64,000 nt of DNA, taken from Ceratodon purpureus. Its lineage: Eukaryota; Streptophyta; Bryopsida; Pseudoditrichales; Ditrichaceae. Below are positions 1-58,619 of this stretch, piece after piece (position 1 is the first letter of the stretch; the number at the start of each line of letters is the position of its first letter). The notes beneath the pieces are model-generated. The model ran no database searches. It was not told where the DNA came from and saw only the letters and a list, made by a program, of their open reading frames with translations. The DNA lies in contig CM026432.1 in assembly GCA_014871385.1 (NCBI GenBank), positions 7,432,825-7,496,824 on the forward strand, read 5' to 3'. The position numbers and the translations under genes were made by a program.

Positions 1-213
1 CGAAGCGTCGGGAGAGGCGCAGGGGCCTACAGGTATGAACTCCTCCAGGATGAACCAAAGGCATGGAACTACTCCCATCTTGTCGTGCAGGCCAGGGTGG
101 ATTTGCAGCAGTATAAGAGTAACAAGAAGAACCCCAGGTTCAGGATGAGCGAGGACACGAGGGAGACGATTCTTTCAAACGTTGAGGAGCGGCAAACCTA
201 TAATGCTCATTGA
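1..213 (+). CDS. Transposase-like protein, C-terminal end only (cut by window edge)
   Basis: The reading frame is open from base 1 to the TGA at 211-213 and encodes 70 residues. These align almost residue for residue with the last 70 residues of the gene ending at 10408: shared blocks include RYELLQD, PKAWNYSHLVVQ, QYKSNKKNPRF and ILSNVEERQ.YNAH. It is therefore the 3' end of a second copy of that transposase-like gene, in the same orientation, with the rest to the left of the window. I infer that it belongs to the outer giant element into which the 1656-31792 element was inserted. The 70 visible residues contain no frameshift or stop, so this copy may be less decayed than its neighbour. The biochemical role of this tail is unknown. 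Confidence 0.85.
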   Translation, partial: RSVGRGAGAYRYELLQDEPKAWNYSHLVVQARVDLQQYKSNKKNPRFRMSEDTRETILSNVEERQTYNAH

Positions 214-1651
214 AGGCACGAAGATGGAACCCGAGGTATGTTTCCGCCTTCACACACGTGCTAGTGGCTCACGACGGTAGAATGAGCGTGGTAGTAATTT
301 TAAATGAGAGTACCAGAATGCAGCAAATCCGAATTATTTTTATTTATGAAAATTGTAGTCCCGGGCATGAAATACGTCGTGGACAGAAGAAATCCGAACA
401 CCACAGGACGAATGCTGTATGTGTGCCTGAATAGCTTATGTCAGACTCCTATTTCAATTCTCTGATGACGTGGTAAGGGCCAGGCATATTCTGAATTTGG
501 GTGTGGTTTCAAGTCTAACGTCAGTACACGTTTGTGCTGGTTGCTGTCTCAGATTGGAACTCAGAGCAGTGTCTCGGTGAAGGGAGCCTGAGGCTTCACC
601 GACTTCAATGCAATCAGTGTGCACTGGTGCTTGTAAACTCGCGTACCGTGAACTATGTCTACTGTAATGTCACATGATTAAGATGTATGTGTTAATTTCC
701 TTTTTTCTTGCATGGCAGTGATAGGGCTCATCTAGTTGAAATATGGAAAAATACATGATTTTGCGGAGCAATGAGTTCGTCGTTTTGCCCTGTACAAACC
801 CCCTCGATGTCCCAATAAATTCAGAGCAGCGTAGGCCTCGTGCTACTGATGACAAGTGCCCCCCCGACTCAGTGTGTCGCCTCGTTGTGCAATGATCCAT
901 TCTCTAGTGTGATGGCATATACCACAATTTCTACCATGCTGAGTACCCGCATGACTAGGAAGATCTACGTTTTTAGACGATGTAGGTGCTGTTTCAAAGT
1001 ACAGTCTGGCATGTGCTGTGGCTTTATGCTAACCACGGCTCTGTGCATCCACACCTGCGATGTTTTTTTTGGGATGCATTTGTTTCGTATCAAGTGCCGT
1101 GTGCAGGCCAAATAAGAGCATAGCTATCCTAGCTGCCGAGGTATATTTCAATACCTTCATGTTTGTGTTGAGGTTACCATCTTCTCCATTCTTTCCATCT
1201 GATTGATTCCGAAGTTTTTCAGCATAGACCTTGTCCACTGACCGCACGGCAGTTGTTTGATTCAAAATTATGCTCGACAGCCTTTGTTGCATGGAAGTTA
1301 GGCAGGATGTTACTTGGAGATCTGATTTTACGAGTGATTGACGAGTGTTCAGGGAAGAGCTGCATCACGGAGCTTTTCATGTCATGGAGCCCTGGCGATA
1401 CCATGAAGTGCATGGAGAGTGGGTCAGAACGGGCACGAGACTATTCCTGCTATCAAGAAGCTAATGGCAGCCAATGGGGAGCATAAGGCTGTTGTGATGA
1501 TGGAGCTCTTCAAGCCCGACAGTTGAAGCGGGCGATTACAAGCCTGGGTGCCATCATGAACTTACTCCTCAATTGAAGTGACTGTCTACTTTGTGCGCAT
1601 GTATGCGTACTTTCATCCGTTCCATGTATGTGCTGTTGATTGAGTTGGTGT
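214..1651. other. Non-coding stretch between transposase 3' end and inner element
   Basis: I see no convincing gene here; the open frames are short and have no family signature. By the nested-element interpretation this is internal DNA of the outer giant element. It ends at 1652-1655, where the 4-bp target duplication ATAT abuts the left terminus of the inner element. Confidence 0.5.
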
Positions 1652-1655
1652 ATAT

Positions 1656-1690
1656 GGGGGGAAGCACAATAAAGTGAACCACAAAAGTGC
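1656..1690 (+). repeat. Left terminal inverted repeat of the inner giant element
   Basis: The repeat starts with six G residues followed by AAGCACAATAAAGTGAACC and pairs with 31758-31792. The following sequence to about 2080 is recognisably related to 60260-60640 inside the short element: blocks GGAAAAGTGA, GGCAAAAAGTA, CACTGTTTTC and GAAACTTTTTG occur in the same order. That marks it as subterminal DNA of one transposon family. Confidence 0.8.
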
Positions 1691-2080
1691 TTATCTCTTC
1701 CCCATTTTCACCCCCTTGTACAAACACTAGAGAAAGTGTAATGTATGTTATGTCAATGTAGAAATATGTTTTGGAAATGGAAAATAGACATCATCTTCCA
1801 CAAGTTCTCAAACTCTTGGGAAAAAACATTGAGTTTATAATGGAGAACGGAGACGTCAAAGTCGGACAAAGTGAATGGTCGTCATTTGGAAAAGTGAACA
1901 TAACGCTTTACGGTTTTCTCCGAAATCACTTTTAATTTCGCGGGCGTCTCCGTTTATGAATTACGGTTCTAGAAATGCGCCGGTTTCGGGTTTTTTGCAT
2001 ACTCGGATGGGCAAAAAGTACCGTTGAGGCGTTCTCGGGACACTGTTTTCAACGAAACTTTTTGGGGCATTAACTTCAAA

Positions 2081-4353
2081 ATTTTGCAGAGTGGAATATT
2101 CATTGATGTTGTTATTTCTGTGACTGATACGCCGGGAAAAGAAAAAGTGAAAAAATAATGAAATAATTTCGGGCTTTTCACTTGAAATTCAGCGGGATGG
2201 AAGTGCAAGTGGAATGCAAGTTCTGTAGAATTGTGCCACATCCCTGCTGTTAGCTCAACGGTTTCATGGGAACCTCATTACTGCTTGGACGTCACATGCC
2301 AGCGATCTTTCCTGCGAGACACCAGTTCAGACTGTCAGGCGATGGTACAGTGGACACTCAATAATCTCATGAGCTGAGTGGTTCTTCAGAGAATGTTCTG
2401 TGCTACTGAATGTGCTGTGCCTAGACGATGAAGAGCCTCGGCGGAGTGGACATGCACGTGCGAAATAATTGGAATGTGGAGGCGCCGAAATTATCCTGCC
2501 CGCCAGCGGAGTCAGCGGAATGCTCGGCGTTCGAACACTGCCGCGATTGATAGGAGCTCATGTATGGAATTCTTCTGAACAGAGTTTATCTTCAGAAATT
2601 AGGGTTTCAAGGTGCTATGCACTGTCGATGTATTCGTGGGGTGTTCGGGACAGGACTCAATTCCACAATGATGGAGGGAGATGCGGAGAGTGCATACAGA
2701 TTCTAGAGCGAGACCACCTACAGTGGGGCATTCGGTTTATGAAGGTCTGAGAACAATATGTGAAGCTCACATGGAGGGTTGCACTTGATTTGAGGCGTAC
2801 AACGGGCCGAAGTCAAGTTCTGTCCATGTTGGTGGAGCGAGTGGATTCAAGCACTCTGAAGTGATTCGGCCGGTGGGGCATTTGAAGAATGGGGTGACGT
2901 GCATCTTTTCAGGTTAGTATGAACCAGCCCCACGATTGAAAGTGCAATGTAAATGAATGAAGTCGCAAGACAGTGAGATCCTTCTGCTTAATTTTGTGAA
3001 GGCAGCAATGTAAAGACGATGGAGAATGCTTTTCCTGCACATCGCGATGTAGGTTTACGGTGCTTCCGGTTTAGGGTTCAAGTCTCGCATTGACATCTTC
3101 CTCTATCAGAGAATGCTCCCTTGTTACCTTGTTAAACCTAGGACCCCTGTTCCATGATTGAAGGTGTTTTCTTTTCAGTTCTATTCTTCGAACCATCAGT
3201 GAAGATTTCCACTAAGGCCTGGTAGTAAAAATGTCAAACGCTTCACTTATTAGAGGTTCGACTAATGCGAATAATGTGGGATTACACATGTTCTTGGATG
3301 CCGAGGTTAACAAACATTAATTCCGAGACGATTGTCGTAGGCACAATCCGTTGCCTCAAGGGCGGTATATCCAGACTAACCTCCGGCGTTGTGCAAAAAA
3401 TATATATGCAGGAATTCAAATGCGAGATTAGTGGGAATTACAGCTACTGGGGTCGACTGCGTTCTGAGAGACACGCTAAAGAGTGGAGACATCAGCATGG
3501 CATGCGCTGTTTGGCATTCGAAATACCAGAAATTTCCATGAGATCACACCTATCAGGGTAAGTTTACATGTGTTTGGGCTTGCTCGGGTACGGGGATTTC
3601 GTATCTTCTAAGCATTGCACGTGCTGGCCACTTAGGGGATTTTGTTCCGGTTAGACTGATTTCCACGCTCTAACCTCTATTTGCGTCGTGGTCTGAATTT
3701 AATATCGTTAAACTTTTCGCCCAGTGATGCTTAGTACTGTAACGTATTCAGTTTAAAGAGTCGTTGACTTGACAATTGCTTACTAATGATCCTCATGCTA
3801 ATGAAATGCGTACTCCGAATCCTTCTATAAGTGGAACTGATCTGTTCTGGGACTTCTTTACTCAGGATGCAAAAGCTCTGTGGGAGGGGATACAAGAGAA
3901 GCAAGGAGTCCAAAAATGAAGCAACGCTCTAGAGGAAGAGTATGAAGATCTTGGTGGGGATGTCTACAACAACAGGACTTGCTCAGGTTTGCAGCGACAA
4001 GGACTCACATGCCAGTCATAATGTAAAGTTTTAATGGACCTTTGATATTTGTATGTCACAAGAGAATATTGTGGAGCTGGAAGAGGAGTCTGACTTGTTG
4101 AATCTGTGACCATAGCTCACGGTTTCTTATCGGAAGGTTTTCTTTCTCTCATGTTTTCTAAGGAAATCAGTGAGTTCTGCAGACCTGTAGTCGGAACAGT
4201 AGTAAAGTAGCATACCGAGCAATGTGTTCGGGATGCGGGGATGAGACACACGTATGGTCATATGCTGTTACAGCAGAGTCGTTGCTGCAGCAAGGATTCC
4301 TGTGGGAATATACGACGCCTCCATGTCTGAAATCAGAGTTTGCTCATGGTCTG

Positions 4354-4385
<32 letters not shown>

Positions 4386-5182
4386 AATTTTTAGAGTTTA
4401 AAGGAGCAACTTCATTTTGAAAATAGTCCATGCTGTCGTAGTGTTACGGAAACATTGACATTGTGAGGATCTGAAGTATCATGTTCATTCGTTTAGGACA
4501 CCTGACTAGATTCACGCTCTGTGTGCACTGGCAGGGTCTGGGGGGAGCGTATGATCAGAAGCCCTGGAAGGCAGCTTCTCCAGAGTCTATGCAGAAATTA
4601 ACCGTCAGTGGGCACTGGCTGCCTAAGGTAGATCAACTAGTCGTCCGCGTTGTTGAACCGTATGGAATCCTGTTTTGGGCACTTCTTTTTCTCGATTGAA
4701 GAAGTAAGTGCATCAGAACGTGTTGACATTGAAAACAGGCAACCATCAAGGTGTGCTACTCGTGATCCATTGCGTCGTGCCTGCACTCTGGAAGTTAGTG
4801 GAAGCTAATCAGTTGTTGCCTCAGGAGTCTGCTGAGGGGGCATGATTTTCAACATGGGCCCTGTACTTTACATGAGTTCTGTTTGCTTTTGGTTGTCAGG
4901 AACAAAGCTGCTGCTAAGAGAGTTATCAGGTATCGTAGATGGATCAGCCGAGCTCGAAGCCACTCCCCATGAAGTTAATTCTCTTGCTCTGGACTTCGAG
5001 GTCTGTTGCTTGGGCATATTCTACAACTGATGCAGACTTACTGGCACACTTCAACAGAACTCGCGGTGCATTATGTGCAGGTTACGGTAGAAGATTCATG
5101 GATTGGGAGGTATTGCACTGAAATGGTGTTGCACCCGGCGGGTAAGACGTCTTCGGTGTGGTAGAGTTTACATTCTGAAAGC
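2081..5182. other. Left subterminal region without recognisable gene; G27 tract
   Basis: No gene is supportable here. A run of 27 G residues occupies 4359-4385. The transposase-like gene begins at 5183, so this stretch may hold its promoter, but I identify no core element with confidence. Confidence 0.5.
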
Positions 5183-8100
5183 ATGGGAAATGCAAGGAAT
5201 AAGTACAATCGGCATTCTTCTCAAGTTCGGAGGGAATTGAGGATTGAGGGGAGCCAGCGGCGGGAGAATGAAATTCAGGAGGCACGGGAGCAAGAACGTC
5301 TACGGTTCCAGAGGTGCCCACTCATACCGATAATGGTAGTGCAAGTAATTGATGTGGATCTCGATGTACGTGTGTGGGAATCCTCTGTACTCCATAACTT
5401 GGAGTTTTTATTGGATTCAACCGGGCGCACACACGGGTTCCTTGGCGCGACACTGTCTGAGGAAGTATTCTGTTCATGAGTGCATACTTGTTGCAGGGAG
5501 GAGCAGAAACGAGAGCACCGGAGGAATTGGAGAAGTCGGGTTCGAGAGGGTGACCTTCTGAGGACCGGGGCCAGTGCAGAAGGTGAAGGATGCTCAGATC
5601 GCCAATCAAGAGAAGAGCCTCCCGTTGATTTAAATGAGGGCGAGGGGGAGTGGGACCGAGGTGAAGAGGCAGAGCATGTCGTCGGTGAAGGAAGCGGGGC
5701 AGAATCGCAGGAGGAAGTCCCAGAATGTGAGAATGAGAGTATTGGCGAAGGGGATGATGGCTGCGAGGACGGTGATGACTGTCCACGACTGACCCCTCGC
5801 AATCGGAAGTGCTTCTACGCAGCCTCAAAAGTCGTCACAAACATCATGCAGTGCCTCGATGCGGGCTTCTCTGACGAAGAGAAGAAGATGGTACTAGATC
5901 GAGTTTGCGTAGATGACCGAATCCGTGCCGTCCACCCAGAGTGGTGCATGGCAGTTCAGAAGCTGCGCACTGTGCCTGCCACCACGGTCCAGAGTCTCAG
6001 AGGGGCGCTGCAAACATTACGAAATACAACTATCCAAGGAAAAGCAAAGGTGAGGAACATAGTATTGACGGCAGCCGTCTCCAACGGCGAGAGTCAGCGT
6101 ATGATATGCAAGGCGTTGGGTGCGTCAAGGTACCTCGTTCGGAAGGCTTATCAGCGACGAGCAGAAGTTGACGAGACGGGGGAAAATTTATGGGCCGGGA
6201 GGGACAGAAAGCGCCGGAGCGATGCACTTAGTGCAGAGGAGCATGGTGCCGTTTCAACTTGGTGGGAGACGGAGACCACTGTCTCCCCAAACAAAAAGGA
6301 TGTCAAGAGGAGACGAATTGCAGCCAAGGAACATGAGGAACATGCCACCCATTACTTACAGGTGTCGCAGGTACAGTCGCTCCTGCCCTCTCCTTACTGC
6401 GGTTTTGTATGCGACGATGTTGGAAGTTCCAGATCCCTCCTCGTTGGGCTTGAGCATGTAGGCGTACATTAGTGTATCCGCACATACTAACCGATTGTTT
6501 TCCACTGTTCGCTGGATCTCATCAAAACCCGTATAAGGACTCGCTGTTAGGAAGATCTCGGGGACACGAATGTCCTTCTGTACAAGACCTCCAAGTAATC
6601 GGTGTGATGGCTTTCCTCGTCCAAAGGGAAGACGACACAGCCACTTCCGGAAGAAGACGTGTGCTTAAGTGGCCACCAGAACTCGGGAGGCATGGTCCAG
6701 AATTTGTACATTCCAGAGTGGCATCCATGGTGGTGTTCTTTCCTAGGATGCCGGTAGTGGAGAATTTTGTGTCCTCCTTCTAGGTGAAGCTCAGAATTCT
6801 GTACTAATTCTCTAGAAGCACCCAGGCTATCCTTGTCTAGAAGGAGAGGATGGAGTCTATAATAAAAATGCGCAGTTCTGAAAGTCAGCTTCTGCGTGAA
6901 GATAGCACAAATCTGACCTGCCAGGTAAGACTATCGCTAAGTTCTTTGGTCAATGCCATCATAATAATAGTAGGCTCTTAAGGCATGGATAGCTAGGAGT
7001 GAGCCATGTCCCCTCAAGCCGAAATGAAGAAAGAGACCAGAAGACGAGCGAATCGGGGAAGTTGCTCAATTCATACAACTGAAGTGAGATTGTGGTTAGC
7101 ACAGTGTCGACACCAAACCGAGACAGTTAATGATGAAATGTGAAGAGACAGTGACGGTACGTGGGACACAGTTTAGGGTAGCTGTCTAACACCTCGCAAG
7201 GAGTGCAGGGGATGGAGCAGAAACAAGGGTTCGTATCCATCTCACGACCACCTAGAACTCTTTGCACGAGTATTCGTGAAGTGACTCTGCTGGAGCTCTT
7301 ACAGATGTTGACTACATGTGAACTCTGAATTTATTTGGTGAAAACAGTTGAAAGAACATGTGACTTCCAGCTTGTGCTCACGGGATTACTTCCTCATTTT
7401 ATTGAGGAATATTTATTATGGGGCAGCGAAGGCAGCATGATGTGCTTAGACTTCGTACTGCAGGCTTTCTTGCACTACTAGTGTATTCGCCACGAAGGGC
7501 ATGTGGCCGTGCATTGTGTGCAGGTGCGGCATTTAAATCAGGTGACCATAGCTGGGACTGTTTATGGTACTACTCACATCGTGTTTTGGTGCGCCGCAGC
7601 TGGAGTTCCATGCCCGGTTCAGGGAATCAAACGAGAAGCATCAAGTGGGGTTGCGGGCTTTTGAGCTCTTGAAGCCTTTTTACGTGAGGAGGCTCAAGGA
7701 GAGAAACACTTGTGCGTGTCGCTATCACTGCGAACTTGCAGAGTTAGTAATGGGTTGGAACAACATGAGATCAACCACAAAGGGAATCCATGGGAGACAC
7801 TGCAACTGCGGCTGCGAGGTCTGCGTGAGCCCAAGAAATGGTGAATCCGCCACAGTGGATCAGGTGAACACATGCCACGCACATCTCTCTCATTTTACTG
7901 GATTGACTGACCTTTGGCATAGCGTGCTCTGCCCAGTCGAGGGTGATGGATGGCATGCCCCGAAATGCATCAAGGGTACATGTGAGCACTGCGGCTTGGA
8001 TATGTTACAGATATGTCCAAGGGAGATGGATGCTGAGGAGCCGCTGTTGGTGCAATGGCATAACTTTGAAATGGTGGTGCACGGCACGACTAGGGCAGGA

Positions 8101-10408
8101 AAGGAAAACAAGGTGCCGCGGATGACGTACCAAAACACTCCCGCTCCGATGTACTTGGATTACTTGACCAAGAAACTGCGACCATTCATCGTGCACAACT
8201 ACGTAGCCAAGTGGCAGGCAGAGCGATACAAAGAGTCCGTGGACACCTTTCCTCCTGAGTCTATACTGTCGGCTGTGGACTTCGCCGAGAACTACACATT
8301 TCAGCCTTACCACGAGCTGCAGTCCATGCATTGGCTGCAGCATCAAATTACCATTCTCGTCCACATTTGTTACCGGTGGAATCCGGATTTTCTCGCAGAT
8401 CAGAGTTGTGGAGCCCCTAAGCTCCTCACGGAGTATCATTATTATATTAGCGATTCTCCCGAGCACGATACTCTTTTTGTGCAACATTGTTTTGCCTTGC
8501 ATTGGAAACACATAACAGATAGGGGAATCAGACCGAACGAGCATATTGTTTGGTCAGACGGGTGCGCGGCTCAATTCAAGTCTCGCAGATGCTGGTACCA
8601 CGTTTCAAGGTATTTATGTGAATTCCATTTCTGGCTCCATGTAGGTGTGTTTTTTGCATTTGCCTTCAGAAACAGCGACTAGGAAATCTTTAATTTCAGT
8701 TTGGTCTATGGATTTTTATCCAGGTATCCCTCCACAACCGTGAGCCCTGAGTTACCGAATGGGTGTCGCATGGTGTGGAGTTATTTTGGCAGTGGACATG
8801 GGAAGGGGCTCCATGATGGAGCAGGGGCGATGTTGAAGTGTGCAATTCGGGCAGAGGAGATGAATTTCGAGTCCCGTACAAAGCTCCAGACTGCGAAAGA
8901 TGTTGTTGCATTCTGTATTCGCAAGGAGCGTGAAGAGCACCGGGCGTATGGAAAAGCCAGGAGAAATTTGATAAGGTATTTCCATCTGATAGACGCAAAT
9001 GCTGTGGACAGAACACGGGACCTCGACTGTCGACCCATACCAGGCACCAGATCAGTGCACTCTGTTTCTTCAGTTTCTGCGACTAATGTGACTTACTTAC
9101 ACATCCGACAGTTATCATGCTTCTGTCCCGAGTGCATGGACGACAACCCGATGTTTTGTGGAAGGCAAAATCATGTGAAGCATTGGGCCTTGGTAGTCTT
9201 GCAGCCGCTGACGCCAATTCAGGTGAGTTTGTGCACGGTGCTCTTTTTCAAGTCAATTAGTGCAGAATCAGTTTGAAATGTGGGTGGTGTGAATAGGGGT
9301 GGGCTAGGTCATGAGCAGTTCTGGTGCAATTCCTTCCATGCGTTATGACCGAAGTCCATGAAACACTCTTTGCAAGGCAGGCTTGTATCAGGATCGACCT
9401 CCTGTCATGGCGTTGTACTGTGTCCCCGGATATATGTTTGCATTCGGTCAACCAAGCAGCCCCGGCTGCGTGCATAGATACGCTCCAGGCTTCATACGTT
9501 CATCGGAACGGGGATGTCCCCATCGCATAGTTGCTGTTTTAGAATTCTCGAACTCCCGATTTGCAAGTGCTGTGTGCCTCCTCTGCCTTGGGGGGTTGAA
9601 AGCGTCCGGAAGGAAACAGGGAAGAATTCGAATTTGTGCTCAGTGGGGCTTGCTGTGCAGAAGGTTTTTTTTTTAGGGGGGGGGGGTTTCAGGGAGGAAC
9701 GGGGTCACCATCTCTAATTTCCTGTCAGATGTAGTGTGAATTTTACCAACTTCCAACCGCGTCGTCTCACAGTGCGTTTCTTTATGCGCGATGTGCTAGA
9801 GCACGGGACAGTGGACGCGGCTCCAACGGGCAGGTCAACAATGCGGCGAAAGCTCTCAACAGCGCGTTCTTCCACCTGTTGAAGTCCACCAGCGAGGCAG
9901 GGGGGGAGATCTATCGGCAGGAGTCGACGCAGTCACTGAGCAGAGGACCGTGGACTTCGACGATGACCTCCTTGACGAAGACGAGGGTGACGCTGATTTG
10001 GACGCCGAAGCGGAGCGCGTCGAAACAGGGGACACGTACGTAGTGTACACGGACCGACCTGAGCATGGGGACAGATTCTTCCTAGTGCTGTGTGACATGC
10101 CCGTCCATAATAATGAAGCCACCTTCACCGACGGATGGGGCTGCACGTGGCCGAAGGATACTATGCTCATCAGTGGAACCTACTACAGGAGAATTCCTAG
10201 TGTTGGGCGAGACGCATCGTCATTCAGATACGAGCTCCTACAGGATGATCCCAAAGCATGGAACTACTCGCATCTAGTTGTGCAATCGAGGGTAGAGTTG
10301 ATCCAATACAAAAGTAACAAGAAGAACCCAAGATTCAAGATGACTGCGGAGACAAGAGAAGCAATTCTTTCCAACGTCGAGGAAAGGCAATCGTATAATG
10401 CGCACTGA
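5183..10408 (+). CDS. Transposase-like protein (DFAENY / SDGC..QFK / HGKG..DG family)
   Basis: Exons that join in phase: 5183-5313, 5497-6370, 7600-8609, 8700-9222, then a terminal part ending at 10408. The N-terminus is charged. Residues encoded near 6060-6170 form a helix-turn-helix-like stretch (ICKALGASRYLVRKA). A Cys/His-rich segment follows (CACRYHCEL, HCNCGCEVC, CEHCGLDMLQIC). Acidic-site motifs VDFAENY, WSDGCAAQFK and SGHGKGLHDGAGA come next. This combination is known from uncharacterised proteins scattered across eukaryotes that I take to be cut-and-paste transposases; I cannot name the superfamily. The tail (9950-10408) is acidic, then has CDMPVHN, FTDGWGCTW and the conserved C-terminus also seen at 1-213. 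The frame breaks at a G7 run (9900-9906), and I could not find a clean phase match between the donor after 9222 and the tail. The gene is either slightly decayed or mis-assembled there. It is the best candidate for the mobilising enzyme of the giant element. Confidence 0.75.
6371..7599. other. Large intron of the transposase-like gene
   Basis: The donor is GTACAG after codon CAG (6368-6370), with an alternative GTGTCG after 6361. The acceptor is GCCGCAG at 7593-7599. Both donors are phase 0 and match the phase of the next exon. Nothing else is recognisable inside. Confidence 0.55.
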
Positions 10409-11403
10409 CGTGGAAAGAAATCTGGCCAAGGTTTTTCTCTTTCTGTGCCTCTCCCTCATACTTGTCGGAAGAGCGAGTATAGTTACGGGTACGTCAGTAC
10501 TTGATGAGCTGATTCGACATGTGATTTCGTTTCAGGAACCAGGAGGGGGCGAGAGAGTTATATGGTCTCAGACGAGTTAATTTATTACTGCAGAATCACT
10601 GATATTTTTGCAACCTTGTTGCTCCAGGACCTCGATGAGTACAGGGACTTGTTGAAGCCAGGCCTCAAAATCGAAAGTGCAAGCTGCGGATCATGAGTGG
10701 TTTCTTGTGTTCCAATCCGAAGATAACACAGACAGTGCTGTGAAGATTAGCAAGAGAGTGTACAGCAGGGTTGAAGGTTACTTCATCCCCAAGAAAGTAT
10801 CGGAGGTATTTTAGGCCCACTCTGCTGCATTCGAAATTTCTTAGTGTGACTCTGATCTTCTCCGGTTCAGTGGTTCAGCTTTGAAGGATGTTCTCATCGT
10901 GCTTACCTTCTACATATACTAGTCACTTCTTATAAATTTCAATTCTCGTGTTCCTTGATCCTCAGTTTCTTATTTTTGCATTCTTGTGGATCAGCTGTTG
11001 TAAGGTCGACCTACATGGGCCTGATACATCTGTATGGGAAGAGATTGAACTCCATTCTGTGGAGTACTTGGAGCCATGAGCATGGTGTTTGTACAATGAT
11101 TGCAAATACATTCTGATTGGTTAATGTTTTGATGGGGCTTTTGTTGGGTTATTTCAGAAGCGAAATCAGAATCAGGTACCGAGGCCATTTCCTCAGGAAG
11201 GTTAGTTGCCGTGTTAATGATTTCCATTAACTGATGGTCCTTGGGGCAGTGAGTCGTTGCCAGCAGCGTGCTATTGACAGAGGGGACTTTCCTAAGTAAT
11301 TTTGCATCTTACCGAACATTCTCATTTCAGTAGTGGCGACTCTAGTGAGGGCTCGAGAAGTTTTGGTATCGGAGATGTGATGTTTCTTTGTATGGTGGTG
11401 CAG
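10409..11403 (+). other. Exon-like remnant of unknown origin and spacer
   Basis: A stretch at about 10628-10806 reads like coding sequence in two frames: DLDEYRDLLKPGLKIE, then HEWFLVFQSEDNTDSAVKIS and VYSRVEGYFIPKKVSE. It follows an acceptor-like CTCCAG and ends before GGTATT. I do not recognise the parent protein. It may be another captured exon. The remainder to 11403 has no gene signal. I did not find the N-terminal exon expected for TWD40-2 here. Confidence 0.3.
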
Positions 11404-15870: not shown

Positions 15871-15887
15871 TTTTTCTATTTCCCAGG

Positions 15888-31792: not shown

Positions 31793-31796
31793 ATAT

Positions 31797-33226
31797 TGAT
31801 GTGATGCAATGCTGTGTGAGTGTTCTCAAATATCACTAGATTTGCGACAGAGCATTACAGAGTCACTAAGCATAAGAGAGTCACTAAGTATGATAACCCT
31901 GTATCGAATCGGTACGTGGGCGCTCAGAGTTCCTGCGTTTGAGACTCTGATTTGATAGTTCGCAGCATGAAGAGATACGAGAGTTCTCCAGTGGTCCCAA
32001 TCGTGAGAGCTCAGTGCTGATTCGTACGTCAACTTGGCTAATCCTCAAGTATTTGTGACACAGCAATTTCTAGTGAAGTCAATGGGCAAGCCTGGCAGGA
32101 TTGCGTGTCCCGTTTTACTGGAGTCTACGGAATTTTTCGTCGAGGTTACTCATCGTTGGCAAATCTTTGGACTGCTGCAGATAAACAACTGTACTTGAAG
32201 CTACATATTTTGCGGGGTGAAACGAGAAGGTGTCGCGGTTGCAGACAAGGTATTGCCTCTCTACCTGCATGGTTGATGATTGGGTAATGCAATGCATGCC
32301 TCGCCCCTGTGAATCTGCTCATGATTTTAAATAGAAGCAATTCCACTGAAGGTAACTAATTCTTCTTACACGATGGAAATTGTTTTCAGCTAATGGTTGA
32401 CCGCCATAGCTGTCCTGAGATTTCATCAAGGTCGCTAGAGAAGTTCTCACTGGTACAGCCTGAGGACAATCAATTAAGATTGAAGGAGCAGATCGTTCAA
32501 TATCCACAAAAAGTACAGGTACTGCCATTTTCATCCTCCTCATATTGGACCACTGCAACGGGGGAATTGGGGTCTTCACTGTAGGAAGAGTGTTTTAGTA
32601 AATGCCACTTCACTTTGCCACTCAAGAGTAATCTTTGAAGGAAGTAGGAGTTTCATATCAAACACTTGCACTCACCGATCATCTTCCCAGAGTGGCCTCT
32701 CTGCACTGGGCAGAGTATACATCTGAGTTTGCTTTACAGCTGTTGTCCCTTCTGTTTGTGACATTATCATGAATGTCTCTTCATACCCAGGATATCCTTG
32801 CGATCTTGTTCGTGAATGCTACATTGCTATTACAGTGACCACAGGGTTTTGCACTTACTAAAATGAAATGTAGTTACTGATTGGACGGCTTTGATGTCAC
32901 TAATTGGTAAGTGATCAATCAGAAATGATGGAGTGGATCTCACTTTCCGGCGCAGAGATCCTTGAAGATCTTAGTTGTGGGATCTCGCTTGGGAGCGTCA
33001 GATTGTCTCCAGTAACAACATCAGCATCCCTTCACTACGCAATTCGGCTGAAGCAAAACGCATTAGGTATTTGGTCTTCTCTTCGCAGCCTTCCTTGCAG
33101 TCGCTACATTGTGCATTTACGCTTTCCCATTGCCCTCATCTCTTCTCTGTGCGCCACCGAATCCCTCTGACTGTTGTCGTCATATCTGGCTTGTTTCCGT
33201 AGGTCCGAATCGCAGAACTTACCAGG
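31797..33226. other. Spacer without recognisable gene
   Basis: Nothing coding-like that I can support. Short direct repeats (TCACTAAGCATAAGAGAGTCACTAAG) occur near 31862-31890. By the nested model this is internal DNA of the outer element. Confidence 0.4.
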
Positions 33227-34629: not shown

Positions 34630-35849
34630 GGTCCCCGTTCTTCCATGGAAGCAGAAGCGAACGGGCACGAGGGACTTGTATGGGGTGACGGGTTCTAGTG
34701 GTCCTAGATAGTCCTAGTACTGTGGCAGACCAGAACATTGCACCTCTTGTAGGACTTAGACCCCCCTTCAAGATTTCCGTTCCAGACAATTTCGGCGTTA
34801 TATGGTGTCTACTAACACTTGGACAATTCTCAGTCTCTGTACATAGGTCAGAACGGTGTGTCAGTCGGGGATAATATTTTTGATGAATTTTGTGTGAAGC
34901 CGCCTCTTTTGGTTTGATGTCGTTCGTGTTGCCCAACATGAATATAGTGGTCCAGCCTTACAATTATCCGCAGTTTTTTGTTATTGCCTTTGTTTCTAGC
35001 ATCGATGAAAGTGGCAGAGCACTTTCCTCTAACGTTTTCTGATTTGGAACACTGCTGTGCTCGGCCACGGTTATTGGGCGAAGTCGAGGTTCCACGCATA
35101 CATGTACTGGCCTTCGCAGCGCTATACTGTACCTTGGTGTGGGATTGTGTTCGCGGAGTAACAATGTTGTGGCAGCGCGATGCAGAGGGAGATCGCAGGT
35201 CAAGAACTCCGAGGTCTGCCTGCAAGGATACCGGCTACAGAATCATTCGCTCGCGGCTGTGGGGACCGATCGGTAAGCTACAATGTGCCTTATTTTCTCG
35301 GACTTCATTGTTCATTTCATTCAGTCATTTCAAGCACTTTGGAACTTTTATTCAGATTACAGACAACCCACCGTGTAAAATCTATAATTGTGTTTAATGC
35401 CTCCGTGCTATCAGGAATGGAGGTATCGAAGGCCCGGGTCCAACAGCCTGCACCATCCTACTCTGCACCGGGTACTCGTTGCTCGGACACATTGGGAGGA
35501 TGTCTACAGTGACCGCGACGTGTGCTGAATCTCACATAGAGGGGACGTATTCCACCGGTATTCCACTTCTGCAACACTTATTCCGCTGTGTTTCCGCGTG
35601 CCATGTCCTGTGTCGAAGTTTTTTTCCGCTGTGTGTTTATGTTGTTGTTAAGATTCTAAGGAATTCATTTTCAACGCTTGGGACGCGTACCATGTGGAAT
35701 CACGTTGCTGACCCCTCGCAAACTATTCAAATGATACTAACTGGAACTTGCTTTGTACTGTCCAGCCGCGAGGCGCTGCTGTCTGCCTGTGCAAAGTGAT
35801 GTTCTAATTCCCTTCCCCTGGCTGACCAGTGCGTGTACCTGCCCTTCCC

Positions 35850-37110
35850 AGGTTCGCCCTCTTTGGTGGTCACGTCCACTTCCCGATCAATTGTTGTCGC
35901 GTGCCAGGCAAGGTAATAGTCTCTACAGTTATCTGGTCATGTGGAACGTGTCACTTCATTCCCCTTCCACTGGGTTACAAAACAGTTCCGCTTGTTTTCC
36001 ACTTGTTCTTCCTTGGAGTTAGATGGGTGAGCACTTCCACTAACAGAGGACGGCCTTGTTACTGAAGCCGCAATGAACACTGTCCTCACTCGCGCTCACT
36101 TGTCCACCACTTCCGCTTTACTTTGTCTGCCTTGAACCTACAGTACTAATGACGTCATTGTCGTTACACTTTCCTGAACTGTTGAAGTCCTTTGCTGTCA
36201 CTAACACTTGATCTCCCTTTCTTTTCAGTTTGGACGAATTCAGTATGGTGGCCCCAGTGTTCACCCGTGGGATTCCGCTTACATCAATGGATGAGCACTT
36301 CCACTAACAGAGGACGGCCTTGTTACTGAAGCCGCAATGAACACTGTCCTCACTCGCGCTCACTTATGCACCACTTCCGCTTTACTTTGTCTGCCTTGAA
36401 CCTACAGTACTAATGACGTCACTGTCGTTACACTTTCCTGAACTGTTGAAGTCCTTTGCTGTCACTAACACTTGATCTCCCTTTCTTTTCAGTTTTCACG
36501 AATTCAGTATGGTGGCCCCAGTGTTCACCCGTGGGATTCCGCTTACATCAATGGGTGAGTGCTTTCACGTACAGGGGATGGCCTTGTAAGCATCTTCCGC
36601 AATGAACATTGTCCTCATCCGCGCTCAATTATGCACCACTTCCGCTTTACTTTGTCTTCGTGGAACCTACAGTACTTACTACTAATGATGTCATTGCCAT
36701 GACACTTTCCTGTACTGTTGTAGTCCTTTGCTTTCGATGACACTTGATCTCCCTTTCATTTCAGTTTTCTGCAGGTCACTTCATTGCAGATTTCGACGGC
36801 AGGTTAACAGGGCTCCTGGTTCTTGCTGGGATGGGCGTAAGAAAACGTCAGCTAAACATGGTGAGTGCTAGGCATTCATTTCCAGTCCGAACTTGTAACC
36901 GTAAGGATAGCTTCTTTGCTGATTGACATGATGGATTCCGGTTTTGTCTTGCCTCATCCGCAATAACACTTGATTTGAATCATAGTGAGAAGATTGACGT
37001 TGTGCATCATAACATTTCAGGTAACTTATCCTCCTCGATCAAAGGCAACACCACCAGCTGTGACAGTGCTTGTCGGGCCAAAGTGGCTGCCATGGCCATT
37101 TTCTGAAACC
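35850..37110 (+). other. Exon chain of an unrecognised gene, with a duplicated exon
   Basis: Putative exons with splice signals: FALFGGHVHFPINCCRVPGK (about 35853-35913, donor GTAATA), RIQYGGPSVHPWDSAYIN (36229-36290 and 36493-36553), GHFIADFDGRLTGLLVLAGM followed by GVRKRQLNM (about 36767-36858, donor GTGAGT), and VTYPPRSKATPPAVTVLVG (from 37021). The blocks read like pieces of one protein but I do not recognise the family, and no start or stop is fixed. It may be another captured gene segment. Confidence 0.35.
36028..36780 (+). repeat. Tandem 264-bp exon-plus-intron repeat, two full units and a partial third
   Basis: Units start at TGAGCAC (36028), TGAGCAC (36292) and TGAGTGC (36556). The first two are nearly identical, including the exon encoding RIQYGGPSVHPWDSAYIN. 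The third has diverged and has lost that exon. In unit 1 the donor after the exon is GGATGAGC instead of GGGTGAGC, so the GT is lost; unit 2 keeps GGGTGAGT. Confidence 0.8.
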
Positions 37111-39475
37111 GATTCCACTCCTGTTTTGGCGGTCTGTGTCTCTTCATCCTCTACCACCATGAGGCATTATGTTGTACTCTGTATTGCAATGCGCGCCTCA
37201 ACCTCTGTCAATGTCTTGCTTCGTGATAGATGCCCTCAATGACATTCCGCAGAGGTACGTCCAATGCACTGACCGCTCTCCTCCATTCGGCTATTGCCAT
37301 CAACTAGCTAGGATCCCTTCCAGTGATGATCATAATAAGCACGGGCTTCTGTTTCAGAATGCTGTTTAGATGCCCCCTATTGATGCAGTCACGGCTCAAG
37401 GTTTTTTTTTTTTTTTTTCGCAGAGCTTGTAAATGCTAGGGTAGTAGTCTGGATATGGATAGCACTCACAGTCCCCGTTTTCTCGTAAAACTCCCTTGCT
37501 TCGCTGAAATTCTCGCAGACTCTTACCGTTGCCTTGGTATCTCCCCCCCCCCTCCCCCCCCCACCGTCACAGTTGTCCCCCCCCCCCCCCCCCCCCACAA
37601 CCTCCAAATTTATTTTCTATTTTGAATAGTGCACACCCTCTCCAGTTCTACATCGTCCTTGCTTTTTCGACTCTGCGTTTTTTTCTTTTCCAAGTCCACG
37701 CGACTTGTACACCCCCTTGATGCCTCGACTGCATTGTTAGGTATGTGCAAGTCTCGTGATCTGAGGAAGATGGCCTCACTGAGATTGTGTCCTGACATCC
37801 CCATAGCCTATCTCATTAAACCCTAGTCCGGGTCTGATTTGCTATCGCGTGCTACAGGGAGATACGATATCGCTAGTGGTAGCCACGTGGATCGTTGCAT
37901 TATCAGTAAGGGAAGTTCCTCTCAACAAGCGTGTGCTTCACGTTTGTTTACATCAGGGTGAGAAATATTAGTTTCAGACGTTGCTAAGTCGAAGTACTCT
38001 ATCTAATATCACTCACCGAACTTTGCAGGCCGGGATGAAGTCTTTGCGGTACTCATTGATTCAGGAGTATTGGTTTGCAAAACCGGCGCAGTGGTAAGTT
38101 TGTCGACTTTTGCATGTACGTCGTTATTTCCGCATTTATGTCCCTGATTTGATACTGTTCTTATATTCCCGTGTCTGGCAGCTGGTTTGTCGACCAACAT
38201 CACACAACTAGGAGAAGATGCACAAGTTCTTCCATGGAGAATACGGGCTCCGAGTACTTGTCTCAGATGGTTAACATCCCTGTCATATGTTCCTGGTTTT
38301 CTAGAATCCTCATTGCACGGCATGTCACAGTTGTTTAGTTCCGTGATTTGCACCGGGTGTGCCCTGTACATCCCTATATGGGAACCATCGGTAGGCATCT
38401 CCTGCGATTAGGCTGCCAGAAGCAATCCACACATACTCTGTAAACCAGCCCAGAACATATGACAAGGTTCCTCACACCCAAGGCTTGAGCCGAGTGGTTA
38501 TTCGTCGCAGATCAATTATAGTGCTAGTGGACACCTCAGTCTCGAATCTTTGCCCCACGAGTCTCCGTGCATGCCGCAAGATGGTCAATATTCCGAATGA
38601 GATAGGCAATGTAGAGTGAGCATTTCTGACGAACGGCAGGGCTGGTTCATTGATGACACTGTTTATTGAATGTCTTTCCACATGAGAGAATGCAGCACTT
38701 CATTTCTGGTCATGAGTCGATGCATGAAACACTGTCCGTCATTTTGATACAACCAAGTATTAGCGCAGTCTCAGTGAAAGACGATTCCAATCTATTTGAC
38801 GAATTACAGGCAACGCTGCGTGATTTCAGTAGACCTATGACGGAATGCTCATTGTTTTTGTGATACGGGCACGTTGCTTGACGGCTGTAATGCAGTAATC
38901 TCACTATTTTTGAGATAATACCATAGACTCATACTCTTGTATACAGAAATCCTTGAATGCAGAATTCTTGTACACCCGCCACAAATATTCCCAATCCACA
39001 AGCAGAGTGCAGTAGTGGTGGACTTCAAGAACTATTGTCATACTTTTAATCTTTATTCACAATTCTTACATGCTTCTGTACATATGCCTTGTTCCTGATT
39101 CCTCTCGCAAGTTACCCATTGGAATGAGAAACCATAAAGCCGAACGTCGTTTTGCTCAGGTCCTGAAATCAAAGGCATCACCTCACGCGAGCAACGACCC
39201 TAAATCCAAAATAGCACACCTTTTACTTCATATTACAAAAACGTGATTACTCCCTAGACATACACATGCACAGTTCTAATGACACTGTTCGTAACCTACT
39301 GGCCCGACCCCTCGCAAACTTAACTGCCGAAATATTTCTATGCAACTACGAACCTTGAACCCACCTCCCGCCTCGAGGCATTCATATGCTGTCCCTTGTC
39401 CAGTGACCGCAGGACGTGGTACTGGATCAAAAATCTCCGCAGAGGGATACCATGGTCGTCTTCCACCTGCAGACC
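37111..39475. other. Spacer with homopolymer tracts
   Basis: No gene is supportable. T-rich (37399-37418) and C-rich tracts (37543-37598, two blocks of C) are present. One short open piece (DEVFAVLIDSG, about 38036-38070) recalls an aspartic-protease motif but has no context. Confidence 0.4.
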
Positions 39476-42400
39476 CTACTCCGCAGCTCCGTCGCGTTTA
39501 CGCTTTGCTAGCTTGCCTCCTCGACCTCGACCCTTCGGCGGTTCAGTGACCACCGCTGGTGCCCTGAATTTCTCATGTAGGCCAAATGCAGCAAGGGGTT
39601 TCATGTTGCAACTCTTCTCTCCCCGCGACACTCCCTGCCCGGTCCGCCCTCGTCCCAAAGGAAGCTTCTTTGCCCCTGTGAGCATCGCACTGTCGCTTGG
39701 AGTGCCCAGACCTACACCGGGCGACGGACACAGCTTGTTCTGCAATGCGGCTTGTCGTCGCGTGCTAGGAGTTCTTGACCCCGTGACGTTGTTGTCCTTC
39801 TTAGCCGGTGACGAACATTCGTCCGCTACCACGGTATCCGATAGGTTTGTATGTTTGCCACCTTCCTCGGGCTCCGTTGCCGGGAGATCTGTCTCCGGAA
39901 CTACGTCGCTGCTCGGGGATGTTGCCCTCTCACCTTCCTCGTCCACAATGGAATCCGCGAGTGCTTCCTCGATTGGACAGTCCTCAGTTCCCACATTCTC
40001 TCCCATCCCACCCTGACTGTCCTGCAAGGTCTCCGGGATCAGCGTATTCGCCTCCTTGCCACCTCCTGCCCCAAGCCTCGCCTGAGTAGACACACATGCT
40101 TGGCTGAGACAGACCTCCTCTACTTCGGGGAGCATAAGGCTGTCGCTGGATGTCTTCCTAGATAGAGAAGGTGGCTCAGAGGCAGTCCCGGATGCAATCT
40201 TCACCGGCGGGGACTGCAACTCCAAACTATCCGGACGTCCCACTATGCCCTCAATTGCTACTCTACCTTTAGCAGACGTCGGCGTTTTCCCACTCGCAGA
40301 TGCAGGCGTCCGTTCCTGCCCCGACGAATGCGTGAGGGCACCCTCCTGCTTCACAAAAACTGGAGTACCCGAAGCTGACCCCACATGAACTGCAAAATTG
40401 ACACAAGCAAGACTTCCAATACTCAGCCTTGTATCTCTTGATTGCATTCCAAGTAGAAGCAGCAAAGGTGAATTTCAAATGAGCGGGATATTCCTAACAA
40501 ACTTCCACTTGGACTGAAAGTGATTGAGTTTAGAAAGTAAGTCATAAAGTCACACAGGGAAAATGCAGTGAGAACAGCGACGTCACAGTGTTTTTGCAGC
40601 AACGTGCTTCCCTGTGCTTTCACTGCACACCGGCTTGTACTGACTCTCCTTGACGTCAGTACATATCCACCAAAGTGTTCAGTAACGGAACTTCCCAACA
40701 ACTGTCCCAGAGGAAGGAAGCACTAAGTACCACAAGTGCTGAAGAAAACCTTAAACAGAAGTGGTGACGGACATTTCAAGTAACCCGTCACTTAATTTTA
40801 AAACCACTGTAGTCAGCATAGTGACAACCCACAGCAGTTATTAGAAACTGAAATGTCTTGACATTGACAACGAAGGAAGAGGTCACTGGCCACACCCTGC
40901 CAGTGAAGTGGCACGATGCGTACAGAAGTGGCCTTCATCAGTAACGCCCCCGGCAACGATCCACATAGTGCCAAACGGAGACACTCCGGCACAGTGAAAA
41001 AACAGCAAAGAACTTGAGAACAGCGCATAAAGCTCCCATCACAGTGTGGATATTTTCCCAATTGCTGTCCAAGGAACAACAGCACAGCCAAATAGCAAAC
41101 GATCCCGGTACAGTACCTCAAAAGGTCAGAGAACGCGAGCCGTGGAGGACGCACAGTGACTCACTGCGAACGCAGTGTCTCAAAGCGAGCTGAGCGTGGC
41201 CTCACGATCTCTAACCTGGATCCACAGGGGGGTACAGCATACGTGACGCAGACTTACGAACATCGAAGTGACATCACAGCATTACTCCCTTCCTGCACTT
41301 ACTTGAAACTGACCCATGACGGTCCAGGTACCGCTTTCGCAACGAAACAGTCAGTGACGACGAAGACACTGGGTAGCCGAGTGATGTGAAAAGACGGAGG
41401 ATCAGAATCAAACCAACCACGACAGTTGAAGAATCAAATAGCACACCTCCGAAGAGATCCCACAATCTGCCGTCGTCACTTTCTTCCTCGCCTGCACCTT
41501 CCTACTCTTCACCCAAATGTTGAGGTGCCCATCCTCGGAAGCAGAGGCACAGAAGGTTCTGATAGATGTGACAACACCGGAACCCTAATCGACGGAAGAT
41601 GAAGCTCACTGTGAACGACCCGCTACTTCCGCTGAGTTTACAGTAACTCGAACTCCTAGCCCGCATCGAACCTCCACTGACATCAAGCTAAGGTAAATAT
41701 TCTCCACGTCCTATTTAAGCGCCCCAAATTTCACTACAGCAGTCCTTGCAGTAGTGATCACAAACGAAGCCGCCATAGAGCTCAGCAGCTAAACCCAAAC
41801 CACGGCCATGGTTGGTTTCAGCCCCCGACCCCTAAACGCTGCTCCAACCTTATGGAACCCTTTCGTCTCGCAGCGAGTTCAGGTGAGGCACAGACAATGC
41901 CGGAAGCTGACGCACTCCGAACAAGAGAACCGACACACCGGAAACATGCACGTGAGTTCAGATGAAGTCTTACAGTTGGTTGATGCGGCAGCTGCAGCAT
42001 CTCCGCCACCAAGACTACCACAACTTATGCGGCCCTCCAACTTCGGCTGGCGAAGTGCCGGTTGCCGCACCTGGATCGCTCCAAAACTATCAAGCCAATC
42101 CGCTGACAATTCACCTTCACAATTTTGACTAGCACACCGTCGTCTGCCGTCACTCAACCAAGCCGCAAGGCAGAAGTGATGGTACGTACAGTCGCATTCT
42201 GTCACAGAGATGTTGTGGCAGCTGAAGCTCATGCCACACACCGGGCAATTTGATATGTAAATGAAATTCTTAGCTTCTCTGGGTGCAACTCTTGGGTTCT
42301 TTAGTGGTAGCGGAGTAGTCCTCATGCCGGAACCTACGGCCATCATCTGGACCTGCTCAGTGAGCCTGCTCACCCAAATCTCTAATCTTGACAAGGCCGC

Positions 42401-44299
42401 ACCTCGTGCACGGATTTCGTTCTCAACCCTTCTCACGTCCGCCAGAATCCCTTCTTGTTCCTGGGCGAGTTGCTCTGTACGTGCGCGCTCCCGGTTCAGG
42501 ATGTGAAGCCGGAACTCCAAGTCCTTGTCAATGATGCGCAACTCCTTTTCCTCATCCCCAACATCTTCTCCACTCAGCAATTCGTCGTGCCCCTCTGAAC
42601 TCACGCCTCCTCTGATAGATTTAAAATGTGCCACCAGACTTTCGCGACGGCTCTTCATGTTGGCGCAACTCAGCTCTTCCTCCCGTAGAGACTTCTGGCG
42701 CTCCTCTAGCGCACCGTCTATCCCCTTGCACCGCTGCTGTAGCTCCTTATGTCGATGCTCCAGTACGTGCCTGCAACGCAATTGCCCCCCAAGCATCCAA
42801 TTAGCACTGCGACAGTAAGTGATCTCATGCTTCGTCATCTGCTACCTGGCAGATCCTACAGAACACTTCACCTAGCTCGACTCCTAACGTCAGTTCTGCG
42901 TTTCTATGTTATGGCTCGGCACAACAATTTACATCCCCCTTTTCATGTCCCGTTCCATGCTTGTCGATGCTAAATGCGCTATTCCCAAGCTCAGTGAGGA
43001 GGTGGGCATCCACTTGCAAAATAAAATAATCCTACACCTGCTATTCCGCACAGGTATAGAAAACAGTAAGGGGACCGAACCAAGAAAGCAACACGACAAT
43101 GACTCATAGGTATTAACATCTCCAGCCCTGTGCACATTTCGAAACATACGGTCACGCATGTGCACATATGCACGCACAAACCTCTGAGTTTAGGGTGAAC
43201 TTACGACAGCATCCTTACCGTGTAATTTCAGGAATCCCTTGCGCTACCTAAGGGGAACACCGCCGGCACCCTAATGTCCACAACTGATAGCTTAAACTGT
43301 AGACCAATTATTTATTTTTATTTACTCAAAACAATGGTGACCATATCTTGCAAACATTTTGTCTAACACCCAAAACCCTCAACATCCGTACCTGTTCCGA
43401 ACATCAAATCCAAGTTCACAACGTGTCCCCCTTCAAGCAGAATTCATCAAGGTCGGTTTAGGCATCTAAGTTCTCCAAAGCCGTAGCATTCACCTCTATG
43501 TCCTGCAAACCCTGATACAGGTGAAGACATCTCGCAAACAACGCATGGACCGTGCTTCCATGCAGACCTGACGTTCCGAACACCAACGAAACAGAGAATA
43601 ATGCGGATGGAAATCACTCACAGCTTGGAACCAATGCCGCCACAGTCGGCCTCGGCAACCCCCAACATCTCAAGCACCGTTGCGGTCTGCTCTTCCGTCC
43701 ACGAGGTCGACTCAGATATCGCTCCACCCTGACGTCGCGCCCCCTGATTTGCATACTGTCCTACGGTGTCACTCGGTGCCGGAACTTGGAGTTCATCCCA
43801 TTTTGTATGCAGAGCCTCCTCCACCCTCCCATCCTTCTGCCATGAAGCATATTGCTTGCGACAGATGTCGTGGGCAAACTTTGCCCAATTGATTTTCGCC
43901 TTCCCCTCCCTCTCCGCCAACCAGCTCCTCAAGAAGAACCTGGCATACTCTTTGTTTGGCGGTGGATGGTTATACACCGTCAAATACAGATTCTGTATGG
44001 CACCGCACTCCTCCTCCGTCAGGACTCGTTTGCCACCAAACGCAGACCACTCCCTCCGATTTTTGGGAAGACTCTTTTCAGGTGGGCATCGCTGATGTGG
44101 TTTGTTGTACACTCAGTCTTGCCGCAGATGCCAGCGTCCTCCACCTGCAACCTCTCTGCGAATTTGCGAAATCCTCCACAGACCACCTACACCTTATATG
44201 CAGTGCTTTGGCGAATTTTATTCTCTCCACGTTTTTCCTGTTGAAATTAGGGTCAAGTTTCGGAAGCGTAGTAGCCAACTCGCGTCTTGCAGAGGCCAT
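39476..44299 (-). pseudogene. Second copy of the three-exon coiled-coil / zinc-ligand gene, frameshifted
   Basis: Exons 44299-43622, 42770-41974 and 40389-39476 correspond to those of the 25150-31078 gene, with the same intron phases and donors (GTGAGT, GTAAGA). Exon 2 keeps the coiled coil (VLEHRHKELQQRCKG) and the zinc cluster (NCPVCGMSFSCHNI, CDCTYHHFCLAAWL, CASQNC). Exon 3 keeps the Ser/Thr/Pro tail and the GKGRGRGGKLAKRKRDG end. Exon 1 is broken twice: the frame is lost after RCRWSVEDF (about 44165), continues as VEDAGICGKTEC in another frame, and shifts again near 44030 before LTEEECG. The net shift is not a multiple of three, so no full protein can be made unless small introns remove these points. 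It belongs to the outer giant element. Confidence 0.8.
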
Positions 44300-45005
44300 C
44301 CAATTGTCACTCTCCGATTACACTCTCGTCTGACTAGCAGACCACTACAACTATCGATTCTATTGCAAACCCTCGTAACCCTACACCCTCACCCGTAATT
44401 CCGCAAACCCTGCAGCCAGACCCTCGTATAGACACACAAAGTGAATCGAAAGTTCACACACAAGGTAATTCACAGGCCGTGTGCTTCGAGACTGCTACAA
44501 CAGACATCGACAAGCAAATCCTGCACATTCTCCCATAGCCTCGCATGCGCCCCACTCTCCAACGCGTCCCCGTGAGTGCAACTCGCTTGATCAGTAAGAA
44601 AAGTAGGTATACAGTGAAGTGTTCATGCAAGCGAAAACGTGAACGGTACCTCCAGCAACCTAGCGCCCACAATTCAACATACGCCCACAATTCAGCATAG
44701 ACCCCCGTCGACATAAATGGTGTTTACAGCTTACCTCTCCTGCGTCAATTCACCTGCCTCGGACACAGTGCGGATTGTGATGAAGCAAAGAAAGTGGCTG
44801 CGTAGCATTCACAGTCCCTCTTCGCCGGCTCCTCCACAATGAAGACCTCTAACTGGAAATCTGTGTCCACCCGTAAACCCTTGCAACAAGTGTCACCCTA
44901 AATCCTACTCACTACCCGGCAGTTGAACAGCCTCCCCACGTTCCCGACCGTTCCCACAGTCCACAAACACACCACTTTGAATCCACTGCAAGTTGGTCAC
45001 ATTTT

Positions 45006-45040
45006 GCACTTTGTGGTCCACTTTACCATGCTCTCCCCCA
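45006..45040 (-). repeat. Degenerate right terminal repeat of the outer giant element
   Basis: The sequence GCACTTTGTGGTCCACTTTA followed by CCATGCTCTCCCCCA corresponds to the 31758-31792 terminus with about four changes. The final CTCTCCCCCA is also the left target duplication of the Mutator-like insertion. Confidence 0.7.
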
Positions 45041-50465: not shown

Positions 50466-50479
50466 AAAACCTCTTAGGC

Positions 50480-58531: not shown

Positions 58532-58619
<88 letters not shown>

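Follow-up and report, generated by a model that had tools for sequence, protein, structure and literature searches.

The DNA stretch analysed here (the window; 64,000 bp on contig C12 of a 362-Mb Ceratodon purpureus assembly in 151 contigs) very probably contains two nested members of a giant, Sola-like family of cut-and-paste DNA transposons of moss, built on a conserved core of two genes and capturing host DNA in the manner of Pack-MULEs. The core consists of a transposase with a triad of aspartates (DDD), read from the left end, and a convergent accessory gene at the right end, whose product combines a long coiled coil with a RING-like Cys/His cluster (the RING gene). Genome searches score best candidates only; all copy numbers given below are thus minimum values, and the lack of a match argues only weakly that a sequence is absent.

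Two nested elements

The ends and flanks of the inner element are as follows.

1652..1655: target-site duplication ATAT, left
1656..31792, plus strand: inner giant element, 30,137 bp
1656..1685, plus strand: left terminal inverted repeat (TIR), 30 bp
31763..31792, minus strand: right TIR, 30 bp, identical to the left
31793..31796: target-site duplication ATAT, right

An earlier note, made from the letters of the window, had seen matching termini at 1656 and 31792 with ATAT duplications and had placed this 30.1-kb element within an older relative. The two TIRs indeed match in 30 of 30 positions, with ATAT directly adjoining on either side. The older relative is represented in the window by the following features.

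1..213, plus strand: 3' end of the outer transposase, whose remaining exons lie upstream of the window
31797..45039, plus strand: outer element, portion right of the insertion
33203..34629, plus strand: outer element, frames of another gene, coiled-coil-like by eye
39476..44317, minus strand: outer element, decayed accessory gene
45010..45039, minus strand: outer right terminus, degenerate, followed directly by AGGG

In 30 kb read upstream of the window, the outer left terminus was found at C12:7427329, corresponding to window coordinate -5495. The outer element thus runs from -5495 to 45039 and measures 50.5 kb with and 20.4 kb without the insert. Downstream of its left terminus lie the main transposase exons, which extend up to window position 210-213 and share 60, 81, 82 and 69% amino-acid identity with those of the inner element, at a DNA identity of only about 72-75%. 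The earlier note's paralogy between the 3' end at 1-213 and the inner transposase is borne out by 80% protein identity of 1-210 to 10199-10405, and the degenerate right terminus it had placed near 45006-45039 is seen at 45010-45039, with 6 mismatches to the inner right terminus. On the left, the expected G-run is present, but the predicted preceding ATAA is absent; instead, the terminus follows ...GCTAGAG and lies within a run of seven G. A three-exon coiled-coil gene does stand just inside both right ends in the same orientation (minus strand), as had been claimed, but the outer copy is damaged, with a stop in exon 2 and an exon 1 split in three pieces.

To search for empty sites, 250 bp from each side of the inner element were joined and compared with the genome. 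Three loci outside the window match across the join, namely C8:1489468 (80%, query 34-327), C1:7723304 (78%, query 34-327) and C6:105023897 (86%, query 178-265); contig C6 (110.5 Mb) is presumably the large sex chromosome of Ceratodon purpureus. All three are uninterrupted and carry ATCT in place of the ATAT target of the inner element, and we read them as related, not allelic, empty sites. Since both outer termini and the outer transposase exons fall outside the inner element, and since three related loci run unbroken through the insertion point, the sequence data support insertion of the inner 30-kb element into an older 20-kb relative. It is very unlikely that the apparent nesting arose from repeats wrongly joined during assembly. 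Such an error would be favoured by the large number of copies, some of them near-identical, and by one or more duplicated loci elsewhere in the assembly, but inner and outer transposase DNA differ enough to make confusion unlikely, ATAT flanks the inner element on both sides, and related empty sites exist.

Further upstream, a left terminus preceded by ATAA lies at about -28,094, with no right end paired to it. Other termini occur between -29442 and -5466, including a right end at -29413 and a reversed unit of ~739 bp at -7102..-6364, and transposase N-terminal fragments lie at about -26000 and -20200. By their sequence, these termini and fragments appear to be further nesting layers.

The two-gene core

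Splice sites of both gene models were read by eye. The inner transposase can be modelled as an open frame of about 1,040 amino acids in five exons, all on the plus strand.

5183..5313, plus strand: transposase exon 1 (model)
5497..6361, plus strand: transposase exon 2 (model; may end at 6370 instead)
7600..8609, plus strand: transposase exon 3, with the first and second Asp of the DDD triad
8724..9222, plus strand: transposase exon 4, with a GHGKGxxDGAGA motif holding the third Asp
9800..10408, plus strand: transposase exon 5, C-terminal domain

Across the family alignment, the triad columns hold Asp in 66/67, 67/67 and 58/59 members. The triad sits on an integrase-like fold, which is RNase H-like in the structure model, and comparison of the model by VIA-align retrieved integrase cores; Foldseek alone gave no match in the PDB with E<=0.001, and a profile search against solved chains no useful one. 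Pfam matches among 68 aligned family members are weak and scattered (in no more than 3 members, lowest E 2.4e-4). A viral origin was considered and rejected, with no confirmed relative of the transposase exon or its profile in viral contigs and none in BFVD with E<=0.001. From its sequence, the enzyme would be expected to perform cut-and-paste transposition on the G-run termini.

The inner accessory gene can likewise be modelled as an open frame, of about 795 amino acids.

30405..31078, minus strand: accessory gene exon 1, holds the start codon
27783..28585, minus strand: accessory gene exon 2, long coiled coil and RING-like Cys/His cluster
25150..26060, minus strand: accessory gene exon 3, a tail whose C-terminus is basic

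Inner and outer copies, both on the minus strand, share 48-71% amino-acid identity by exon, with splice sites at corresponding places (by eye). The structure model of the protein is poor except for two long helices (mean predicted local distance difference test score, pLDDT, 59). Both inner genes are under purifying selection, the ratio of nonsynonymous to synonymous substitution rates (dN/dS) being 0.11-0.12 for RING exons 1-2. Hypothetical or RING-type Ceratodon proteins in public databases (P0051, P0053-P0057) match the accessory gene and are missing the modelled first exon.

Genome-wide, the transposase exon at 7600-8616 has at least 120 matches, of which at least 106 copies were retained after 13 matches of 41-44% identity had been set apart and one split match merged. 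For the RING exon, at least 103 of at least 127 matches were retained (10 of 27-37% identity set apart, 4 fragments dropped, split pieces merged). In 73 of the 106 transposase copies, a RING gene follows within 60 kb downstream, on the opposite strand; a same-strand downstream RING gene occurs in none of the 106, and the upstream counts are 2 and 2. When genes were placed at random (300 runs, with approximate sizes for contigs C2 and C10), convergent pairs numbered 0.9 on average and 4 at most, compared to 72 of 100 observed on chromosomes. The spacing over 71 distinct RING genes has a median of 22.4 kb (interquartile range 18.9-28.9 kb). Because it recurs with the transposase, the accessory gene looks like a part of the element and not cargo.

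The 13 transposase matches set apart (e.g. C2:7695295, C8:1214274, C12:7143317) constitute a second, related group of mostly open frames, for which no listed RING match lies within 60 kb.

Termini and long units in the genome

The earlier note had called for a genome-wide search for paired termini with 4-bp duplications. Outside the window, 7 of the 40 listed right-end matches pair with a correctly oriented left end at 20-54 kb, and six of these seven long pairs (20-53 kb) have identical 4 bp on both sides.

C9 unit: 20.0 kb, duplication CCGT
C8 unit: 36.1 kb, duplication GTGG
C1 unit (C1:11275497-11313396): 37.9 kb, duplication AAGG
C3 unit: 41.8 kb, duplication ATAT
C13 unit: 53.2 kb, duplication GTAG
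C3 unit (C3:15.86M, left end L021): 53.0 kb, duplication AGTT

A candidate at C7:3.8M, in which the left end is not at the expected offset, was left uncounted. Eight right ends were read without a left end beside them; one of these, C1:20.09M, belongs to the mismatching seventh pair (C1:20055479-20088864).

Left ends were sampled as the 20 best-scoring of 40 listed matches outside the window, with about 10 kb read for each. Six are followed by transposase exons and lack a right end in the roughly 9.5 kb that follow; nine bound units of ~737 bp and one a unit of 1.94 kb. The remaining four show neither a transposase nor a convincing partner in 10 kb, and one of them bounds the 53.2-kb C13 unit on its left. 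Since left ends bound both ~737-bp units and transposase-bearing ones, giant and miniature forms use the same termini, and the notion that these termini might bound only short units does not hold. Matching 4-bp duplications flank eight of the nine ~737-bp units (by eye), two of the eight being one duplicated locus. The window holds such a unit as well.

60225..60961, plus strand: 737-bp non-autonomous unit, same termini, AGTT duplications

In each of two subgroups (four and two copies), the left parts share 99.0-99.8% identity along about 9.3-9.8 kb, a sign of recent movement. Against these copies, the inner element itself shows about 76-83% identity in aligned pieces.

The giants could alternatively be shorter transposons that were enlarged by nested insertions and segmental duplication, with the RING gene as a hitch-hiker. 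We regard this as quite unlikely. Nesting is present in the window, the 20.0-kb C9 unit retains its CCGT duplication with a transposase and accessory exon 1 and no listed exon 2, and the transposase of the 53.0-kb C3 unit lies 21.7 kb from the left end, which suggests an intervening insertion. A hitch-hiker, however, is difficult to reconcile with the convergent arrangement kept in 73 of 106 copies, with the low dN/dS of RING exons 1-2, and with the splice sites retained in both window copies.

At C8 11286365-11395063, a right end and a RING gene in one orientation lie about 90 kb from a left end, a transposase and a B3 gene in the other, possibly two elements or an inversion.

Captured host DNA and the B3 gene

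The middle of the inner element carries B3 frames and a captured host segment.

19144..19923, plus strand: frame weakly matching the B3 domain (score under the cut-off); the C8 copy conserves part of this DNA
19924..20238, plus strand: frame with a B3 DNA-binding domain (Pfam E 3.2e-7, slightly exceeding the gathering score)
22308..24264, minus strand: captured segment, 1,957 bp, 98.4% identical to C3:16052608-16054561
22286..23752, minus strand: F-box/KIB1-4-like frame in the captured segment

The Pfam match of the F-box/KIB1-4-like frame, at 26.2 bits, is slightly below the cut-off of 27.4. At the C3 locus the open frame is longer (510 versus 488 amino acids) and no transposon terminus occurs in the 5.5 kb read around it; for these reasons, C3 is the likely donor of the segment. 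Fragments of the F-box gene are also present on C6. The label of cargo, which the earlier note had applied to the element as a whole, fits this recent copy of the C3 locus but not the coiled-coil gene with its recurrence beside the transposase. In the C8 copy, a fragment that matches the large subunit of RNA polymerase I (E 8.6e-5) lies between accessory exons 1 and 2; with this fragment in one and the F-box segment in the other, the C8 and inner copies differ in the DNA they carry.

Among the matches listed, 24 resemble the B3 gene at 66% identity or more. Thirteen of them share the strand of the transposase and lie within a transposase-RING interval, and for another 6 a same-strand transposase lies within 30 kb; of the remaining five, C13:11641571 is inside the 53.2-kb unit, for which no transposase is listed. 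Of 11 more distant matches (picked by eye), 8 fall inside intervals on the opposite strand. As B3 genes occupy the transposase strand in only a minority of intervals (13/71) and B3 domains are common in the genome, we count B3 as a recurrent and not as a core gene.

Proposed mechanism

In the mechanism we propose, the five-exon DDD transposase would recognise the ~30-bp G-run termini, excise a unit of 20-50 kb and insert it by a 4-bp staggered cut. The convergent three-exon coiled-coil/RING-like protein may be a transposition or anti-silencing cofactor, a role we infer because both genes show purifying selection. Captured host DNA and insertions would enlarge the middle of the element, and a subset has a B3-like DNA-binding gene there. 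Moreover, the proteins would act on units without the full gene set. Such action in trans is probable, since the C9 unit, with accessory exon 1 present and no listed RING exon 2 match, and the C13 unit, with no listed transposase match, both have matching duplications.

Relation to known systems

In the parts of the review that concern us, Sola elements are described as having a DDD transposase, 4-bp duplications and TIRs, as occurring in Physcomitrella, and as measuring mostly 2-9 kb and in some cases over 15 kb (PMC10741241). The moss family shares the (predicted) DDD triad, the 4-bp duplications and the TIRs, but differs from that description in unit size (20-53 kb in the six end-paired units), in the convergent RING-like gene and in the B3-like gene of a subset (PMC10741241). 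We file it, by described features and not by Sola sequences, as most likely Sola-like: a giant, two-gene, gene-capturing variant in a land plant. The AWWT target pattern reported for Sola2 in the relevant section of PMC3627910 is not followed, as ATAT occurs alongside CCGT, GTGG, GTAG, AAGG and AGTT. These deviating duplications, together with the weak and scattered Pfam matches, would suit units that belong not to Sola but to an as yet unnamed superfamily of DDD transposases, likewise with 4-bp duplications and an otherwise identical mechanism. We consider this rather improbable, as the DDD triad, the 4-bp duplications and the occurrence in moss match the description of Sola given in that part of the review (PMC10741241).

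Several observations weigh against the Sola-like, two-gene reading. No convergent RING gene lies within 60 kb of 33 of the 106 transposase copies, of which 5 are on contigs without any RING match, and 6 of the 106 are on small contigs. The near-identical C60/C3 pair (L014/L015) also matches over about 500 bp of left flank; because the match extends outside the element, it is a duplicate locus and not two insertions. At C1:20055479-20088864 the flanks mismatch (ATAA versus TGGT), and the pair was rejected as one simple unit. Four of the six duplications (GTGG, AAGG, GTAG, CCGT) adjoin the terminal G/C run, so that on one side the assignment of one or two letters is partly ambiguous. For the outer element a target-site duplication is not demonstrable, its left flank being compatible with AGGG only if the G-run was shortened. 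In the selection analysis, dS is saturated in 8 of 26 comparisons and above 1 in several more, and the compared copies are not independent. Finally, putative Sola membership was judged from described features. The C60/C3 locus is either duplicated or redundant in the assembly.

Giant Sola itself is already known in brown algae. The section of PMC12477816 on Ectocarpus describes Sola1-1_Ec32, of 21.5 kb, with a ParB-like/DNA-methyltransferase accessory gene opposite to the transposase strand. Compared by description, it resembles the moss family in its size, its opposite-strand accessory gene and its host with a long haploid stage, but the moss accessory protein is a coiled coil with a RING-like cluster (PMC12477816). 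The Sola2-Fanzor1 chimeras of amoebozoa are, in the account consulted, an example of the uptake of a second protein by Sola elements (PMC3627910). They share with the moss family the 4-bp duplications, a second captured protein and a common 5' but variable 3' part, and differ by TIRs of 12-21 bp and AT-rich duplications (PMC3627910); no Fanzor was found in the scanned moss element frames. KDZ (Kyakuja-Dileera-Zisupton) giants of algae, as outlined in PMC12477816, are like the moss element in their size of about 30 kb and their accessory genes. Among the 68 moss family members there was no KDZ Pfam match at E<=0.01.

The Starships of fungi are giant cargo-carrying units with a tyrosine recombinase captain. 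The moss units are also giant and cargo-carrying, but their enzyme is of the DDD type and their termini are 30-bp inverted repeats. Pack-MULEs and MuDR are known for the capture of host gene pieces and for two convergent genes, and the moss family shares these traits. In contrast to the often long TIRs and 7-12 bp duplications given for Mutator/Pack-MULE in that portion of the review (PMC10741241), the moss element has 30-bp TIRs and 4-bp duplications.

The corresponding part of PMC12477816 describes, for algae and fungi, DNA transposons that reach 20-30 kb and more and carry accessory genes; among open-access titles and abstract openings, we found no such giant accessory-gene element for moss or another land plant. 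With its numerous, near-identical copies, the family can be used to test whether haploid life permits giant elements, as proposed there (PMC12477816), as well as the role of the second conserved transposon protein and the copying of host gene segments. Ceratodon proteins in NCBI gene listings (P0051, P0054) match the transposon accessory gene. A wider view is tentative and, in our opinion, possible but doubtful: a land-plant lineage of giant transposons, with a normal autonomous form of 20-50 kb, an obligate core of DDD transposase and coiled-coil/RING protein and often a B3-like gene, in which the RING protein would counter host silencing and which, as the plant equivalent of Starships, would continually copy host genes from chromosome to chromosome in a plant with a dominant haploid phase.

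Other features of the window

Within the inner element, a 1.5-kb direct repeat (11887-13379 and 14367-15872) is 79% identical. The element also carries a short splicing-factor-like fragment, and other family copies share the surrounding DNA (1656-4627).

3229..3558, plus strand: frame in which 39 amino acids resemble the C-terminal region of SF3a60/Prp9 (Pfam E 2.9e-11)

To the right of the outer element, a repeat array at 49447-50471 contains perfect 26-bp inverted pieces (49557-49582, 49770-49795). A frame at 48303-48755 (minus strand) with repeated MPTSPVY units resembles, as a candidate, the C-terminal domain of RNA polymerase II. Frames at 55321-58631 (minus strand) resemble, by eye, a hAT-type transposase with a poly-glycine start, and a leucine-rich-repeat-like frame (by eye) lies at 62081-62539 (plus strand).

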